From: Gammaproteobacteria bacterium | GTDB lineage: Bacteria > Pseudomonadota > Gammaproteobacteria > Pseudomonadales > JAUIET01 | Direction: 5' to 3' | Assembly (NCBI GenBank): GCA_030429735.1 | Contig: JAUIET010000007.1 | Coordinates: forward strand, 1 to 64,000 | Length of the DNA stretch: 64,000 nucleotides | Shown here: positions 19,796 to 59,472 of the stretch, one piece after another | Numbering within the stretch: position 1 is the first letter of the stretch | How the letters are laid out: every line of letters begins with the position of its first letter | Position numbers and translations under genes: made by a program | Notes under the pieces: generated by a model | What the model was told of the DNA's origin: nothing | Databases searched by the model: none | What the model saw: the letters and a program-made list of their open reading frames with translations, nothing else

Positions 19796-20707
19796 ATGAA
19801 AACAAAGCCAATCAGAACTACCCTACAAGCAGCGCTAACAGGCTTCATTCTCTCCATCGCTTTGACCGCGAACGGTTCAACATTCGAAACTGATCTGGTT
19901 GCAGCGGCCTATGAAAGAACACAGAGCTCTGTATCTTACGATGGAAGGTATTTCTCCATTTCGTACCCGGGCGGAGACGTACCATCTCACATAGGCGTTT
20001 GTACCGATGTTATTATCAGGTCGTATCGAAAAATTGGCACTGACCTGCAGAAGCTGGTGCATGAAGATATGACGATGAACTTTGACCGCTACCCTTCAAA
20101 TAGAATTTGGGGCCTAACAACGCCAGACAAAAATATTGATCACAGACGGGTTCCCAATCTGCAGGTGTTTTTTTCCAGGCGGGGCGAACAGCTCAGAATA
20201 TCCTTTAGGGAAGCTCTGAAAAATACCCGATGCCTCTGGCTTACAGGCGAATCCAGAGTTGAGGCGCGAGTTCGCCGGCTTACTGGTGGTAAGTCAAGAA
20301 CTTGCAACGACAAGGCTGGATTCGCCTGTAAGCCCCGCAGGGCGCGGCCTGTAGCGCACCATGGCTTCGTTGCGCCGCTCGCCAAGGACACCCAGCCTTG
20401 GCCTTCTCGACGCGCCTCACCACGGCACGCTACAGGTCACGCAGAGGCATTGGGTATTTTTTAGAGCTTCCCTAGCCCGGAAGAGTATGCGCCAGGAAAC
20501 CTGGTCACCTGGATGCTGCCCGGTAACTTGCCACATATAGGAATTGTCATTGATTCGGTCAATCCTGAAACGGGCAACCCAGTGGTGGTGCACAACATAG
20601 GTCGGGGTCCGGTGGTGGAGGACATGCTGTTCAAGTACCAGATTACTGGTCATTATCGCTTTGTGCCGGAAAAATACGAAGAGCCGGCTCGCAACGAGCA
20701 GCAGTAA
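19796..20707 (+). pseudogene. DUF1287 (YijF-like) gene interrupted by a 265-bp element, in frame
   Basis: The 5' part has a signal peptide (LTGFILSIALTANGS) and the DUF1287 signature: GVCTDVIIRSYRKIGTDLQ, VHEDM, YPSNRIWGL, NIDHRRVPNL. At 20208 it enters the mobile element; beyond it the same frame resumes as SPEEYAPGNLVTW, LPHIGIVIDS, VVHNIGRGP, ITGHYRF. Element plus target duplication is 267 bp, or 89 codons, so phase is kept. The only stop inside is a TAG at 20462-20464 in the right inverted end. Without the insert the protein would be about 214 residues, normal for the family. DUF1287 proteins are secreted NlpC/P60-like proteins of unknown activity. Confidence 0.85.
20208..20472. mobile_element. 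MITE-like 265-bp element, copy 1, TA target duplication
   Basis: Terminal inverted repeats of about 30 bp (GGGAAGCTCTGAAAAATACC at the left, the near-complement at the right) are flanked by TA at 20206-20207 and 20473-20474. Inside is a perfect 19-bp pair at 20238-20256 and 20316-20334, and a second pair based on CCTGTAGCG/CGCTACAGG. No transposase is encoded. TA duplication suggests mobilisation by an IS630/Tc1-mariner-type enzyme. It is 97% identical (7 differences) to the copy at 59.1 kb and of exactly equal length. Confidence 0.9.
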
Positions 20708-20757
20708 GCCGCGATCATCTGCACCTGAAAGCCAGGGTAATGCAGGCCGGCGTCAGA

Positions 20758-20832
20758 CCCCAATGCCCCTTACCCCAATGCCCCTTACCCCAATGCCCCT
20801 TACCCCAATGCCCCTTACCCCAATGCCCCTTG
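20758..20832. repeat. 15-bp tandem repeat, five copies
   Basis: CCCCAATGCCCCTTA is repeated five times head to tail, with one change (final A to G) in the last unit. It starts 51 bases after the stop of the DUF1287 remnant. The unit length is a multiple of 3, so a frame through it would read as a PMPLT repeat, but no convincing gene covers it. From here to 21198 I see nothing else except the upstream region of the envelope operon. Confidence 0.95.
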
Positions 20833-21198: not shown

Positions 21199-22011
21199 AT
21201 GTCACTTTTACCCAACCCGCAGAGCGTAATCGCCTGTGCAATACTGTTATTTGCCTCCACCGCATTCGCCAGTCCTTCCGGGCCCGTGGTGCGACTGTTT
21301 CCAACCACCGTGCTCGAAGACATTCGTGAAACGAGCCAAGTGGCGGAAGAGATGGAGAACAACTTGCAGGAGATCATCCACCGCCTGGACATGCAACGCG
21401 AAATGCACCAGGAAAGCCTCTGTCAGGGCGCAGACTCGGACCAGGGTTGCGCGCGAATCGCCAAGCAGCTGGGTGATACTTACCTGGAGATGCTGAACGC
21501 CATGAGCGAGCGACTGCCGGAAATGGAGCGCGCTGTTACCAACACTCGCCAAAGCCTGGAAAAACGCTTACGAAGCGAACTCGGTCACCGCACGACGCCC
21601 ACAACGCTGCAGAACTCTCTGCTCGGTGAGGCGGCCAGCACCGTAAGCACCACCAAACCTGAACTGCGTGGGCGGTCCGGCGTGCGCTTGTCTAATCGAT
21701 TCAAGCAGTACTACAACCTGGTTGCCGCGCATCGTGAGGGGCCAGCGAAGTCGCTCGCCGTGGTTGCTGCAGACATTTATCTCGACATGGAGGAAGCCGC
21801 GCAGCTTATCGCTGCAACGCAAGAAGAGATTGGTCGCGCCACCCTCATGGGGCAGCTCAACCAATCGTTCGGTGCCATTACCCCGGAGATGGCCAATGTG
21901 GTGGAGGGTGTGAAAGAAATACTGTTCGGCGAAAGCAGCGAGATAATCGCCATTCCGTCGTCGCCCACACTCGCAAGCCAAACCGAATACGTTAGCCCAC
22001 TTGATATGTAG
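21199..22011 (+). CDS. Envelope operon gene 1: exported helical protein
   Basis: About 270 residues from the ATG at 21199, which follows AAGGAGA; a longer frame from 21031 would add an unlikely leader. A signal peptide ends near AFASPSG. The rest is almost all charged, heptad-like helix (VLEDIRETSQVAEEMENNLQEIIHRLDMQ, MLNAMSERLPEMERAVTNTRQSLEKRL), with one Cys pair (LCQGADSDQGCARI). It should be a periplasmic coiled-coil protein. It heads a seven-gene run in which neighbours overlap or nearly touch. I do not recognise the family; it could be a periplasmic scaffold or sensor for the channel proteins downstream. Confidence 0.75.
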   Translation: MSLLPNPQSVIACAILLFASTAFASPSGPVVRLFPTTVLEDIRETSQVAEEMENNLQEIIHRLDMQREMHQESLCQGADSDQGCARIAKQLGDTYLEMLNAMSERLPEMERAVTNTRQSLEKRLRSELGHRTTPTTLQNSLLGEAASTVSTTKPELRGRSGVRLSNRFKQYYNLVAAHREGPAKSLAVVAADIYLDMEEAAQLIAATQEEIGRATLMGQLNQSFGAITPEMANVVEGVKEILFGESSEIIAIPSSPTLASQTEYVSPLDM

Positions 22012-22024
22012 CAGGAGTATAGAC

Positions 22025-22564
22025 ATGAAATCACTTATCATTGCACTCGGCACACTCATCGTCCTCGGCGGTTGTGCCAACCAAACACCCGTGGCCACGT
22101 CTTGTAACATCGACGTGAGCAACAAGCTTGTCAGCGCCATCCATGAAGTGGAGGAACGGCTTGCTTCTGGGTGCGCTTATCACTTCGATGCGTACTTTCA
22201 GCAACTTATGAAAGTAGCTGAGGAGAATGCGGCGCCCGAGAATAAGCAGCTCTTCTCCGAGCACCTGGTGCGCGTGAGCGACGCGGGGCTTATCAACAAA
22301 CGCCAGGCGAAGGCGCTGTACAACCGCTACTTCAATGTGAAGTTCGTGTCTTTCACTGGCGACTACAACACCTGCTCGCAAGCGTGCCCGGTGCACAGCG
22401 AAGTGGTGAGCAACATGCGCCATGAGCTCAAGGACAAAGAGCGCGGCCTTATGCACGCATCGCTTGACCAGGGCAGCTACTATCGCGCTGACCACCTCTT
22501 GAAGGAAGCGCAACTGGTACTCGAAGCCACCTGCCGAGCGTGCGCGAATGGCGACCAAAACTAA
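22025..22564 (+). CDS. Envelope operon gene 2: small lipoprotein
   Basis: A 179-residue lipoprotein from the ATG at 22025, preceded by CAGGAG. The signal peptide ends with the lipobox VLGGCANQ. Asn/Gln after the Cys rather than Asp favours outer-membrane sorting. The mature part has five or more Cys (TSC, GCAY, TCSQAC, TCRAC), pointing to disulfides in the periplasm, and is helical otherwise. Its last 17 bases overlap the channel gene. No family recognised. Confidence 0.75.
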   Translation: MKSLIIALGTLIVLGGCANQTPVATSCNIDVSNKLVSAIHEVEERLASGCAYHFDAYFQQLMKVAEENAAPENKQLFSEHLVRVSDAGLINKRQAKALYNRYFNVKFVSFTGDYNTCSQACPVHSEVVSNMRHELKDKERGLMHASLDQGSYYRADHLLKEAQLVLEATCRACANGDQN

Positions 22565-23174
22565 AGGCGGCTTCACTCTGGGAGCGCTGACGGGCGTGGC
22601 GCTGGTTGCATTGCTTATGCTCGGAAGCGCTCCAGAGTCGAGCCTAGGCGGTGGCACGGCCCTCATTTGGGTGCAACAAAATCTGGGTGCCTCGCTCTGG
22701 TTCTTTGCCACAGTATCGGCCCTCTTTGTGTTCGACCTCACCCGTTTGAAGCACCACCTATTCAACCACGAGGGCCGCCATGAGCACTCAGCGCTACGCG
22801 ATGTTGTGGGCCTCGACCAAAGACTCGATGTGTGGGCGCATTTGTTTGTGGGTATTGGCGTGGTGTGGACTGCGATCGGTATGCGCAGTGCGCTTCAAAC
22901 AGCCCTGGGTGGTGGCGACTTAAGTGGTTCTGCCAACTCCGTGTTAAAAAACCTTGTAGATGGTGGCATCTTGCTCGCGCTCACCACCACCATCGTCGGC
23001 GGTGTGGGTGGGTACCTCATGCGCCTTGTTAAAACGGTGTGTGTGGGGGCCGCCTTGCAGGCGTTTTACGAGGTGCTGAATCAGGCCGGGGTAAGGGAGT
23101 TGATAGTCGCCACCGAGCGCATCGAATCGCAGCTGAAGAGCTTGTCACACGCCGAGGGGCCAACAAGCTCATGA
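22548..23174 (+). CDS. Envelope operon gene 3: MotA/TolQ/ExbB-like membrane protein
   Basis: A 208-residue protein with four predicted membrane spans: TLGALTGVALVALLMLG, LWFFATVSALFVFDL, WAHLFVGIGVVWTAIGM, and LVDGGILLALTTTIVGGVGG. The last two resemble the channel-forming TM2-TM3 pair of MotA/TolQ/ExbB proteins (GLLGTVxGM and EALxxTaxGLxxAIP types), with a charged loop after TM2. Such proteins form a pentamer that takes up protons or Na+ and drives a partner with one membrane span. The next gene encodes such a partner. The similarity is remote; a profile search would settle it. Confidence 0.65.
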   Translation: MATKTKGGFTLGALTGVALVALLMLGSAPESSLGGGTALIWVQQNLGASLWFFATVSALFVFDLTRLKHHLFNHEGRHEHSALRDVVGLDQRLDVWAHLFVGIGVVWTAIGMRSALQTALGGGDLSGSANSVLKNLVDGGILLALTTTIVGGVGGYLMRLVKTVCVGAALQAFYEVLNQAGVRELIVATERIESQLKSLSHAEGPTSS

Positions 23175-23830
23175 ACACACGCTACAGTCTCCGCCACTTC
23201 GAAGACGACGGTTTACAAACCGACGTGATGCGGTTCATGGCCATCATCGCGTTTTGCCTGGTGGCGGTACTAGCGCTCGTGCGCGATATGGAACCTACCG
23301 AAACGCCAACAGCCGCGGAACCGAAAGCGGTTGAGCCGGTGAAGCCAGTGCCGGAAGTCACTGTGGAAAAGCCGGCAGCGCCCGCCCCCGCGGAAGCGTT
23401 GGCTGAACCGGGGCCAACGCCGCTGACGCCACCCGAAGAGATCGACGTTGGCGAGGCGGCGCCTTTGCCGGTAGCCAGTTCTACATCCGAGGATCAGGGC
23501 CTCAGCCTGCGTTTTGCGAGCGATGCCGCGTTCGTCAACCTGATCCGCCGAGGTAAGGTGCGAGTGTACGCGTTTCAACAAAACCGCTTTCTGATGCTGG
23601 ACCGAGGCTTTGCCTTCCATCCTACAAGCCCGCCGCAGTCCATCCATGAGTTAGAAACGGTACCCAGCCGTGTGCAAGCGGCACTTGCCGGAAAACTTAA
23701 CAATAACCAGTGGGGGGTGCGCCTACCGAAACCCACCGCTGCATCCATCCAACAGCTCGCCAACCGCTTTCAATCCGGGCAGTTAGTGATCGATCAAACC
23801 GGAGCCGTGCGTCATGTTCCGCTTCCCTAG
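23171..23830 (+). CDS. Envelope operon gene 4: ExbD/MotB-like single-span protein
   Basis: A 219-residue protein starting with ATG at 23171, overlapping the channel gene by 4 bases. A short cytoplasmic start is followed by one membrane helix, TDVMRFMAIIAFCLVAVLAL. D18 sits at its cytoplasmic edge, the place of the ion-carrying Asp in ExbD/TolR/MotB (DVMxxLLIxFM type). A Pro/Ala/Glu-rich linker (about 40-110) would cross the periplasm, then comes a folded C-terminal domain (LSLRFASDAAFVNLIRRGKV onward). This topology fits a stator-rod protein that carries force across the envelope. No peptidoglycan-binding OmpA motif was seen. Confidence 0.7.
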   Translation: MNTRYSLRHFEDDGLQTDVMRFMAIIAFCLVAVLALVRDMEPTETPTAAEPKAVEPVKPVPEVTVEKPAAPAPAEALAEPGPTPLTPPEEIDVGEAAPLPVASSTSEDQGLSLRFASDAAFVNLIRRGKVRVYAFQQNRFLMLDRGFAFHPTSPPQSIHELETVPSRVQAALAGKLNNNQWGVRLPKPTAASIQQLANRFQSGQLVIDQTGAVRHVPLP

Positions 23831-24824
23831 CATTCTACTTTTCCTGCTTGCGGGTATTAGCCATGCAAGCGCGCAACAGAGCCCGCTCGAGCACTGGCTC
23901 TCGGGCACGGTCGCGCCCAGGCTTGCGATGAAGCTGGAGAAACATCCCAAGTTCAGCGGCGAAGTGATTCGGCTCAGCGCCATGCAGGGTGGTCGTTTAA
24001 CGGAAACGAGTAACGATCTCGTGCGCATGATCGAGCGCGATCTAACAGTACGTCTAATGCGCTATGAAGGCATTCGCATTCGCTACCACGGTCAGCCATT
24101 CAAACCCACTGATCGCCCGGTACACTACGTGCTCGGCGTGGATGTGCACAAACACCACGGTTCCGAGCATCGCGTTACAGTCGCTATGGTTGATCTAACC
24201 GAGGGCATTTGGGTGGGCGGCACCGCGTTTCGTTGGCAAGGTCGGTTGTCGCGGGCGGAGCGGGCGCTACTTGGCAATCAAACTACTGCTCGGCGTGCCT
24301 CAGCACCGATTGCCTCGGCGCAAAGCGTGCCCACCCAGACTACGCCTGTTAGTCTGCAGCGCACACGGACTGAGCCTACCACTCTGCTTAGCGCCTTGAC
24401 TTACAGAAAAGTCTCAGGTGAAGGTGTGTGCGAGGGCCAGACCGGTTCGGTGTGCGTTGAGGTTCAAGTACCGTTGCAACAGCATGCCAATCTGCTCGTG
24501 TTTGCTAAACGCGACAGTAAGGTGATTCCGGCCTGCAACTCCGGCGCAAAACTTCGCAGCCCCGGTACCTACCACTTCCGACTGCCGGTAACTGTACAAA
24601 AAAGCTCTCGCGCACGCGCGGATGCAGACGCGGACTTCTATGCGATCGCCACCCAGGATCCACGTGCCGCTGCGTCGCTGGGGTATTTACTTGAAGCAGC
24701 GTGTTCTCAGCAATCAGCGCTGTGGCAAATAAGCTTCAAACAGGCACTCGAAAAAGTAAAACCCAGCACTGAGTGGCAAGTGCTACGCCTCCGCCGCAGT
24801 GGCCGGGGCGTGCGCGCACTTTGA
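23814..24824 (+). CDS. Envelope operon gene 5: exported protein
   Basis: A 336-residue protein with a clear signal peptide (FPSILLFLLAGISHASA) that overlaps the rod-protein gene by 17 bases. The first domain (about 25-150) contains GEVIRLSAMQGGRLTETSN and DDLVRMIERDLTVRL-like helix, then HYVLGVDVHKHHGS and IWVGGTAFRW, a mixed alpha/beta pattern like that of secreted proteins that oppose a FlgO/LpoB-type fold. A linker rich in Thr/Ser follows, then a second beta domain with three or four Cys (GVCEGQTGSVCVEV, IPACNSG, EAACSQ). I assign no function. It is expected in the periplasm or at the outer membrane with the rest of the operon. Confidence 0.65.
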   Translation: MFRFPSILLFLLAGISHASAQQSPLEHWLSGTVAPRLAMKLEKHPKFSGEVIRLSAMQGGRLTETSNDLVRMIERDLTVRLMRYEGIRIRYHGQPFKPTDRPVHYVLGVDVHKHHGSEHRVTVAMVDLTEGIWVGGTAFRWQGRLSRAERALLGNQTTARRASAPIASAQSVPTQTTPVSLQRTRTEPTTLLSALTYRKVSGEGVCEGQTGSVCVEVQVPLQQHANLLVFAKRDSKVIPACNSGAKLRSPGTYHFRLPVTVQKSSRARADADADFYAIATQDPRAAASLGYLLEAACSQQSALWQISFKQALEKVKPSTEWQVLRLRRSGRGVRAL

Positions 24825-24840
24825 CAAAGGAGTACACACC

Positions 24841-25335
24841 ATGCGATTTCTTTTAGGTCTTCTCGTTGGCGCGAGTCTCACCCACCTCGCCATTTGCACT
24901 TACCAGGGAAAGCCGCCTTTTCAGTTTGACGTCATCGCCTGGCAGAACTTGATCGCGCGTGTGCAAGCACCACTTCGCGAGCAGCTGCCCGCTACGCCAA
25001 AAAAGCAGCACGAGCCTACCGTGTATAAAGCCGAGTCCTTAGAGCATGACGCGCCTTTGCACACCGCCACCAGCGCACCGGAAGCAGTGAAAAAGTCGGA
25101 GCCCGCCGTGCAAGCCGTCCAGGTTTCAGGGCAGCAGGTGGTGTGGACACCGTTCCACAGCGAAGCTTCCGCTAACGGCTTCGCCGGCCGCTTAACTGCC
25201 CAGCTCGGCCCACGATTCGCCGTGGATAAGCTCGCTCCGCACACTTACGTAGTGACATTCAGCTACGACAGTGAACGCGAGCGGGCCTATCTACAGGCTC
25301 AGGTTAACGCGCTCACAGGAGGGTCCGACTTATGA
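24841..25335 (+). CDS. Envelope operon gene 6: membrane-anchored SPOR-like protein
   Basis: A 164-residue protein from the ATG at 24841 after CAAAGGAG. One N-terminal hydrophobic segment (FLLGLLVGASLTHLAI) anchors it in the inner membrane. A charged linker leads to a C-terminal domain, VVWTPFHSEASANGFAGRL then FAVDKLAPHTYVVTFSY, with the beta-alpha-beta layout and length of SPOR domains, which bind denuded peptidoglycan glycan strands. It overlaps the transglycosylase gene by 4 bases, so both wall-related proteins are translationally coupled. The SPOR call is by pattern and moderately sure. Confidence 0.65.
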   Translation: MRFLLGLLVGASLTHLAICTYQGKPPFQFDVIAWQNLIARVQAPLREQLPATPKKQHEPTVYKAESLEHDAPLHTATSAPEAVKKSEPAVQAVQVSGQQVVWTPFHSEASANGFAGRLTAQLGPRFAVDKLAPHTYVVTFSYDSERERAYLQAQVNALTGGSDL

Positions 25336-26012
25336 AAGCCATTCTCATCGTTATATTGCTATCAATAAGCACCATCGTGAACGCGGCGGCGCAACGCTAC
25401 CCCTACCAACGCTGTTTTGAGATTGCTGCTACCCTGCACGACCTGCCAATCGATTTGGTGCTGGCCGTTGCCGCCACGGAAAGCAACTGGGATCCCGACG
25501 CGCGCTCACATGCCAACGCGCACGGTATTATGCAAATCCAGTGGCCAGGCACCGCAAAAGATCTCGGTGTGGAGCGGGTTTCAGAGTTGTACAACCCCTG
25601 TCTTAATATCGAACTTGGCAGTCGCTACCTCAAAGAGCTGCTCGGCCGCTTCGATGGCGACGAGACTAAAGCCCTTGCCGCCTATAACTACGGACCGGGT
25701 CGGATCGAGCGTTCAAGCTCCATCCCCGAAGGCGCGCTCAAGTACGTGGCAACGGTGCGAAAGCACCGCAAGCGTGTTCGCGGCGGTAATCTACCGAAGC
25801 GCCTGCAAGCCAACAAAAACGCCACGCTGATGGTGTTTGATTCCGCCACCCGCGCAAAGCGCCTGGCCAGCAAACTCAGCAATGCGCTGGACGGGGCAAC
25901 TGCCCGTTACGCGAAGGTGAGCAGTGGTCATGCCGTGAACCTCGTTGTTGGTCAAGCGGGGCTGACGATGAGCGATAGAGTAATGTTACAAGGCTTGGGG
26001 TTGGCGCAATGA
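25332..26012 (+). CDS. Envelope operon gene 7: lytic transglycosylase (SLT/GH23)
   Basis: A 226-residue periplasmic protein with a signal peptide (AILIVILLSISTIVNAAA). The SLT core is complete: catalytic E50 in VAATESNWDP, GIMQIQ, LNIELGSRYLKELL and AAYNYGPGRI. The last 70 residues (TLMVFDSATRAKRLASKLS, VNLVVGQAGL) look like a SPOR-type tail similar to the neighbour. Lytic transglycosylases cut the glycan backbone to make 1,6-anhydroMurNAc ends; here it probably opens or remodels the wall for the envelope machine encoded upstream. Confidence 0.9.
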   Translation: MKAILIVILLSISTIVNAAAQRYPYQRCFEIAATLHDLPIDLVLAVAATESNWDPDARSHANAHGIMQIQWPGTAKDLGVERVSELYNPCLNIELGSRYLKELLGRFDGDETKALAAYNYGPGRIERSSSIPEGALKYVATVRKHRKRVRGGNLPKRLQANKNATLMVFDSATRAKRLASKLSNALDGATARYAKVSSGHAVNLVVGQAGLTMSDRVMLQGLGLAQ

Positions 26013-59031: not shown

Positions 59032-59095
59032 TAAGCCCAGGTCCTCAGGTGCAGACGGACGCCCTGTTGGTACGAACTTATGTTAAGGGACACTA

Positions 59096-59360
59096 GTGAA
59101 GCTCTGAAAAATACCCGATGCCTCTGGCTTACAGGCGAATCCAGAGTTGAGGCGCGAGTTCGCAGGCTTACTGGTGGTAAGTCAAGAACTTGCAACGACA
59201 AGGCTGGGTTCGCCTGTAAGCCCCGCAGGGCGCGACCTGTAGCGCACCGTGGCTTCGTTGCGCCGCTCGCCAAGGACACCCAGCCTTGGCCTTCTCGACG
59301 CGCCTCACCACGGCACGCTACAGGTCACGCAGAGGCATTGGGTATTTTTCAGAGCTTCAC
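59096..59360. mobile_element. MITE-like 265-bp element, copy 2, TA target duplication
   Basis: Of the same length and ends as the copy at 20.2 kb, with TA at 59094-59095 and 59361-59362. The two copies differ at seven positions. Two of these are the paired second and second-last bases (GGG...CCC in copy 1, GTG...CAC here), so the ends changed together. Its frame corresponding to the DUF1287 insertion is open throughout, because CAG stands where copy 1 has TAG. It sits in an intergenic gap here. Confidence 0.92.
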
Positions 59361-59472
59361 TAGAACATCGTTGAATTGACGTAGCTCAACGCCTGTGTAC
59401 CTGTTCTGGTCTATATTGGCCGCCAATACCCACTGGCAAGCGGTAAAGCGCTTGCATTGAGCAGGAGTTAAT

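Follow-up and report, generated by a model that had tools for sequence, protein, structure and literature searches.

A conserved seven-gene operon as a candidate ion-driven envelope motor with its own lytic transglycosylase

Ion-driven motors built as a ring and an axle power flagella, nutrient uptake, outer-membrane constriction, gliding and one phage defence. The described systems closest to the locus analysed here are ExbBD-TonB and Tol-Pal (TolQRA, TolB, Pal and CpoB). In its available text, section 8 of PMC12204202 describes an Asp-Thr ring that is conserved in MotAB, ExbBD and TolQR, and states that more such motor systems remain to be discovered. Our analysis concerns a seven-gene operon at positions 21199-26012 of the forward strand of a gammaproteobacterial contig, within a 64,000-nucleotide stretch that was analysed as a whole (the window). 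We estimate a probability of about 60% that the operon encodes a trans-envelope motor, ion-driven and so far undescribed, that brings its own enzyme for cutting the cell wall. Such a motor had been proposed in a sequence-only reading of the window, which did not recognise the gene set as a described system. Consistent with this, we found no publication on such an operon in the open-licence literature, which is not proof of absence, and the available text of PMC12505986, PMC9389320 and PMC12204202 nowhere mentions the word "transglycosylase".

Seven open reading frames (ORFs) on the same strand fill the interval and overlap or almost abut, at the places where they had been predicted. Genes 2 and 3, 3 and 4, 4 and 5, and 6 and 7 overlap, while the gaps between genes 1 and 2 and between genes 5 and 6 are shorter than 20 bases. 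Gene 7 alone is assigned to a family above a curated cut-off; genes 1 to 6 match no NCBIfam or Pfam family above its cut-off and nothing in PHROGs below E 0.05. A promoter and terminator scan gave results at chance level.

That these genes form a unit is supported by their conservation in other genomes. Relatives were gathered by scanning genome contigs with a five-row gene 3 profile, which found 104, of which 80 loci were kept. Together with the window and ten more fetched loci these gave 91 loci with 5763 ORFs, in which genes 1 to 7 were labelled by iterated hidden Markov models (HMMs), and dropping six duplicate fetches left 85 distinct loci. Nearly all loci were gathered through gene 3 alone, so its presence is given by construction; near-identical symbiont loci (L102, L103, L106, L108 and L113) are included, and neither the 85 loci nor the well-flanked subset below are all independent. 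A gene was scored as present when a label at E < 1e-4 fell at any place in the locus; on this count gene 1 was found in 79 of the 85, gene 2 in 84, gene 4 in 83, gene 5 in 73, gene 6 in 67 and gene 7 in 66. Among the 38 well-flanked loci, with at least 4.5 kb to the left and at least 7 kb to the right of gene 3, genes 1 to 4 are present in all 38, genes 5 and 6 in 36 and gene 7 in 35, and 35 carry the complete set; of the others, L063 lacks gene 7, and L081 and L095 lack genes 5 to 7. The expectation that the seven genes are kept together elsewhere is thus upheld. Median intergenic gaps, taken from longest-ORF starts, run from -25 to +15 bases, and the order from gene 1 to gene 7 is the commonest order string (37/91 loci). 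In six of the 91 loci the order is instead 5-6-7-1-2-3-4, so in the gene order genes 1-4 act as one block and genes 5-7 as another; four of these six have genes 6 and 7 in one ORF. Among the 35 complete loci, the labels of genes 6 and 7 share an ORF in four, L018, L079, L090 and L091. Other gene orders occur in L098, L101 and L107. The seven genes are a real, tightly packed and conserved set, far beyond chance.

The carriers belong to the Gammaproteobacteria and the Desulfobacterales, are patchily distributed and are nearly all metagenome-assembled. Matches in 95 near-relative genomes came from two, the operon's own genome and one that proved to hold Zorya. In a sample of the order, 6 of 390 genomes matched, including the own genome and the Zorya genome, which leaves four others. 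In a sample of the class, 6 of 369 matched, including the own genome, with at most eight candidates per genome scored, such that copies may be missed. A gene 1 profile found the own genome only among 398 genomes of the phylum, with at most six candidates per genome scored and the same possibility of missed copies. An empty-site comparison with the one genome of the same genus gave, short repeat copies aside, a single 503-base match at 74%. Residue conservation was read from alignments of 41 members for gene 1, 41 for gene 2, 48 for gene 3, 44 for gene 4, 36 for gene 5, 36 for gene 6 and 37 for gene 7, for which a script had first dropped ORFs running off contig ends, ORFs of unusual length and eleven loci that were duplicates or nearly so, and from which further members were removed by hand.

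Gene 3 (22548..23174, +) encodes an A-subunit-like putative ion channel protein of 208 amino acids. The window protein does not match MotA_ExbB (PF01618), the family against which it was to be checked, and 3 of the 48 members match it at E up to 1; one such match, at E 0.0006, reaches 20.0 bits against a cut-off of 22.9. Because the cut-off is missed, we term gene 3 a distant relative and not a PF01618 member. The relation itself is provided by profile-profile comparison and fold ranking. When compared by hhalign with a partner set of eight MotA/TolQ/ExbB proteins from its own genome and a ZorA, gene 3 aligns over the two pore helices with 64.5% probability (P 6.3e-5); its score is 38.6, whereas the highest of 100 column shuffles scored 16.3, and the reversed control gave 0.1%. 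Its AlphaFold2 model has a mean pLDDT of 86.5, and in a Foldseek search with this model ExbB, TolQ, MotA/PomA or ZorA accounted for 36 of the best 50 of 289 matches, including ranks 1-13. As a rough control, the model of the unrelated helical gene 1 drew about five motor rows among its best 50. Gene 3 is therefore a distant MotA/TolQ/ExbB relative, and what did not stand of the likeness first proposed is membership by any curated cut-off.

The conserved residues of gene 3 point in the same direction. T108 and T148 align with the threonine pair of a TolQ-type protein of the own genome and are invariant in all 48 members, and on our reading of the alignment they probably occupy the same columns as the ExbB and TolQ threonines. 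The available text of PMC12905483 lists as essential Asp25 of ExbBD, Thr148 and Thr181 of ExbB, and Thr145 and Thr178 of TolQ. Also invariant in gene 3 (48/48) are G102, G104, G111, T147 and G151. Gene 3 thus resembles the A subunit of ExbBD-TonB, as a divergent protein that has a pair of pore helices and keeps two threonines invariant. ExbB carries a cytoplasmic loop between its first two core helices. The gene 3 model differs here, as helices 49-73 and 79-121 are no more than about five residues apart, such that the ExbB-type loop appears nearly absent from the model. It also has an additional helix (8-26) at the N-terminus, ahead of a three-helix core like that of ExbB.

Directly downstream lies the candidate B subunit, gene 4 (23171..23830, +). 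The protein has a single N-terminal hydrophobic helix, identified by eye, that opens with LQTDVMRF, followed by a long linker and a conserved C-terminal domain with which, in the alignment, the protein ends. Within the DxMRF motif the D, M, R and F are each invariant (44/44); the reference sequence starts one codon early (23168), hence this aspartate, residue D18 of the protein, is numbered D19 in the alignment. The linker spans 26-173 residues and is proline-rich in some members and proline-poor in others; some members match coiled-coil families and one matches the TonB polyproline region. Genes 3 and 4 have a median gap of -3, and in 79 of 82 cases they lie within the adjacency limits set, -400 to 60 bases. 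According to the available text of PMC12505986, B subunits, ExbD and TolR among them, were typically too weak to be detected and were assigned by their position directly downstream of A. In topology, aspartate and position, gene 4 fits a MotB/ExbD-type subunit and is in this respect like its counterpart in ExbBD-TonB, though we do not file it as ExbD. At L088:1119-2753, genes 3 and 4 lie in one ORF of 544 amino acids, which may be a natural A-B fusion or a sequencing frameshift in the contig.

The remaining five genes set the operon apart from the Ton system: genes 1, 2 and 5 are unrelated to it, and the operon has a dedicated SLT enzyme. In the seven genes no TonB is recognised, and the Pfam scan of all seven found no TonB-dependent transporter, TolB or Pal. 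The SHLS pattern of TolA and TonB, in the spacing searched for, occurs in none of 36 gene 6 members and none of 44 gene 4 members. A separate transducer of the TolA/TonB kind, bound to the edge of the motor, is not evident because the pattern is absent from both genes.

Gene 7 (25332..26012, +) encodes a predicted exported SLT lytic transglycosylase of 226 amino acids, as had been proposed, and the family assignment is confirmed at the level of sequence by PF01464 (E 1.5e-26; 92.7 bits against a cut-off of 21.3). E50 and S51 are invariant in all 37 members, and we take E50 to be the catalytic glutamate of the transglycosylase. Gene 6 (24841..25335, +) has an N-terminal anchor, a GxxxG-type helix in which G10 is invariant (36/36), then a linker and a C-terminal stretch that appears weakly SPOR-like. 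The SPOR family (PF05036) does not match the window copy and matches 3 of 36 members, with a best E of 0.012; by hhalign the similarity to SPOR has a probability of 12.8% (P 0.0022), with 0/100 shuffles as high. The description of gene 6 as a SPOR-like anchored protein thus holds for the anchor and a weak similarity, but not for a firm SPOR domain.

SPOR domains bind denuded glycan, and this raises the question of whether the operon is a Tol-Pal-like, division-associated system. Here a septal motor would draw the outer membrane in or separate the daughters, with genes 6 and 7 recruited to denuded glycan. The combination of a motor, a lipoprotein, a SPOR-like protein and a lytic transglycosylase fits septal biology, and like Tol-Pal the locus is a seven-gene operon with an A/B motor pair, a lipoprotein and periplasmic partners. 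In contrast to Tol-Pal, it has neither the TolB and Pal families nor the SHLS pattern, carries its own lytic transglycosylase, and is patchy beside a separate TolQ-type gene of the host, which has a TolA-like neighbour (names by eye). Its patchy presence, in four genomes besides its own among 390 of the order, disfavours a core division role. We therefore regard a division system as unlikely, though it ranks second among the tasks considered.

Two further described systems share features with the operon. In the TolQ-vWA transpore-helix systems described in the available text of PMC12204202, the Asp-bearing pore subunit itself bears a long periplasmic arm, as gene 4 may do; unlike in those systems, no vWA domain is among the Pfam matches listed for gene 4, the partners are different, and there is a wall enzyme. 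Zorya (ZorAB) is also built on an A/B pair, and gene 3 weakly matches the PADLOC ZorA model (E 0.0012). This match, together with caspase-like neighbours, would be expected if the operon served defence against phages or cell suicide, as a system akin to Zorya in principle. In 4 of the 85 loci there is a caspase-like cluster, and Pfam caspase domains were confirmed in neighbours from L091, L098, L107 and L112, two of them with DUF4384 and some with FHA or sulfatase-modifying-factor domains. However, caspase-like matches lie near just 2 of the 38 well-flanked loci and none lies beside the window copy, no other gene of the seven matches PADLOC and thus no ZorB, ZorC, ZorD or ZorE model is matched, and gene 3, at 208 amino acids, has no long ZorA tail. 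Searches also found no relatives of gene 3 in plasmid, phage and viral-contig collections, and none of gene 4 in viral contigs. Defence is improbable and stands as a distant fourth among the tasks. The Pfam scan, PADLOC and the SHLS pattern together set the operon apart from Zorya and, as had been stated earlier, from Tol-Pal and Ton. A true Zorya-like locus, with ZorA, ZorB and ZorC by PADLOC, lies at L020:5877-10151 in an order-mate; it was found through its weak ZorA similarity to gene 3 and was rejected as a member of the operon family.

The operon could also be read as a holin-endolysin-like lysis cassette, with gene 3 as holin and gene 7 as endolysin. A phage-holin family is matched by 4 of 48 gene 3 members (best E 4.3e-5), but the one holin match that was located, a lower-scoring one in L081 (E 0.022), spans only the N-terminal helix, residues 2-36. 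The invariant pore threonines, the paired Asp protein and the seven-gene synteny do not fit such a cassette, and we set this very improbable reading aside.

The other three genes of the operon are predicted envelope proteins. Gene 1 (21199..22011, +) would encode an exported, nearly all-helical protein of 270 amino acids with a signal peptide by eye. Its 41-member alignment has a mean column identity of 44%, the highest of the seven, with C75 and C84 invariant. The top Foldseek rows of its helical model are designed bundles, ClyA and gp41 mimics, and the few motor chains, at E of at least 0.5, are uninformative. Gene 2 (22025..22564, +; its reference sequence starts at 22028, one codon past the ATG) is a predicted lipoprotein with an LGGC lipobox, the cysteine of which is invariant (41/41). 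Under the "+2 rule" of the Lol pathway, the residue after the lipoprotein cysteine governs sorting. In gene 2 this residue is not Asp in 40 of 41 members, and because Asp follows the cysteine in just one member, an outer-membrane location is suggested. A Pfam match of gene 2 to APP_E2, at 22.0 bits against a cut-off of 22.2, was taken as chance. Gene 5 (23814..24824, +) is a predicted exported protein of 336 amino acids in the window copy, against a median of 477 in relatives. A lipobox was found by pattern in 11 of 36 members, at least one of them doubtful, and is absent from the window copy. Two of the 36 members match DUF4384 (best E 6.9e-11), and profile comparison with a small DUF4384 set gave a weak 3.6% probability. 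By sequence comparison, genes 1 and 5 appear to belong to no known family.

The genes around the operon provide a rationale for its possible purpose, although the matches rest on HMMs from single-linkage clusters and some single matches may be false. Near 24 of the 38 well-flanked loci there is a glycine-zipper-type protein or a relative, and in 13 of 38 pairs of related zipper-type proteins flank the operon on both sides and on the same strand, at about -2000 and +4000 from gene 3; one upstream representative that was scanned matches Rick_17kDa_Anti, and a downstream representative has no Pfam match. Kinase or response-regulator models match near 13 of the 38. Because sensor-kinase/response-regulator genes and glycine-zipper-type proteins often adjoin the operon, we favour envelope remodelling or maintenance under particular conditions as the likeliest purpose, and remodelling on demand ranks first among the tasks. 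Clusters of sigma-like and anti-sigma-like neighbours occur in Desulfobacterales but are not claimed as such, as the sigma-like protein has no Pfam match and the zinc-finger match falls under its cut-off.

Envelope-spanning assemblies are often accompanied by a dedicated transglycosylase. A third possibility is a surface motility, assembly or secretion motor like AglRQS-Glt or GldLM, in which gene 7 would clear a path through the wall; according to the available text of PMC9389320, known motors of gliding and type IX systems likewise consist of an A/B pair of this type. Against this, among the 45 largest neighbour clusters, whose identity was checked mainly for the larger ones, none besides genes 1 to 7, the zipper and the two-component proteins occurs in more than 5 of 85 loci, so nothing there points to a dedicated export channel or adhesin. 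This makes such a motor quite unlikely, and it ranks behind division.

Under the preferred reading, a trans-envelope motor with its own wall-cutting enzyme, gene 3 would form the inner-membrane ring and a gene 4 dimer the axle within it, in a presumed 5:2 assembly. Protons, or possibly Na+, would pass between the invariant aspartate of gene 4 and the threonine ring of gene 3 and would turn or shift the gene 4 dimer. The gene 4 arm, with its long linker, would then carry force directly into the periplasm, a role we propose because no TolA/TonB-type transducer is recognised, and may pass it to gene 1, the lipoprotein gene 2 and gene 5. Local cutting or clearing of peptidoglycan by the anchored gene 6 and the transglycosylase gene 7 would let the motor arm reach the outer membrane or pull on it. 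More tentatively, the operon may represent a separate class of motor whose axle subunit doubles as the force arm. Force would here be linked mechanically to a dedicated lytic transglycosylase, or would gate it, and the wall would be opened at the point where the motor pulls. Such a class, switched on by envelope-stress signalling, would have spread between Gammaproteobacteria and Desulfobacterota.

Several observations weigh against the motor reading. The best Foldseek E value for the gene 3 model was 0.2. In VIA-align the same protein reaches Z up to 10.5 (TolQ), with 24 of the best 50 rows from the motor family, but SNARE helical bundles reach Z 9.3-9.9 in the same rows, and the tool itself cautions that with helical bundles a Z below about 13 can be of little significance. 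Gene 4 had been called ExbD-like; its single helix with the invariant aspartate and its place downstream of gene 3 support this, while a profile relation to ExbD does not: the hhalign probability of 1.3% equals that of the reversed control, though 0/100 shuffles scored as high, and ExbD (PF02472) neither matches the window protein in Pfam nor is among the first 25 families listed for the 44 members. Profiles of genes 1 to 6 gave no credible match among solved structures, the best rows, such as capsid proteins for gene 4, resembling low complexity or chance. Genes 1 to 4 are kept without genes 5 to 7 in L081 and L095, where the wall enzyme may be dispensable or the contigs broken, and in L092 genes 1 and 2 lie on the opposite strand. 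Finally, neither a zipper protein nor a kinase or regulator adjoins the window copy.

If this reading is correct, the operon would add a motor that standard libraries miss, as its A subunit falls below the Pfam cut-off. With a motor and a wall-cutting enzyme in one operon, the way in which such motors transmit force across peptidoglycan could also be studied directly. The matches include named strains, Exilibacterium tricleocarpae R142, Candidatus Litorirhabdus singularis IMCC14734 and Desulfobacter latus AcRS2, which may make the system testable.

Upstream of the operon, the window also holds a MITE-like repeat of about 270 bp at 20206-20474, which recurs at 59094-59363 and has 33-nt terminal inverted repeats (94% complementary) as well as internal inverted repeats. 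Counting both window copies, the own genome has 18 near-full-length copies with 82-100% identity, and the same-genus genome has four near-full-length copies and partial ones. The first window copy forms the end of an ORF at 19796-20464, possibly a gene that the insertion has interrupted. Between this repeat and the operon, at 20757-20831, a 15-bp unit is present in five perfect tandem copies.

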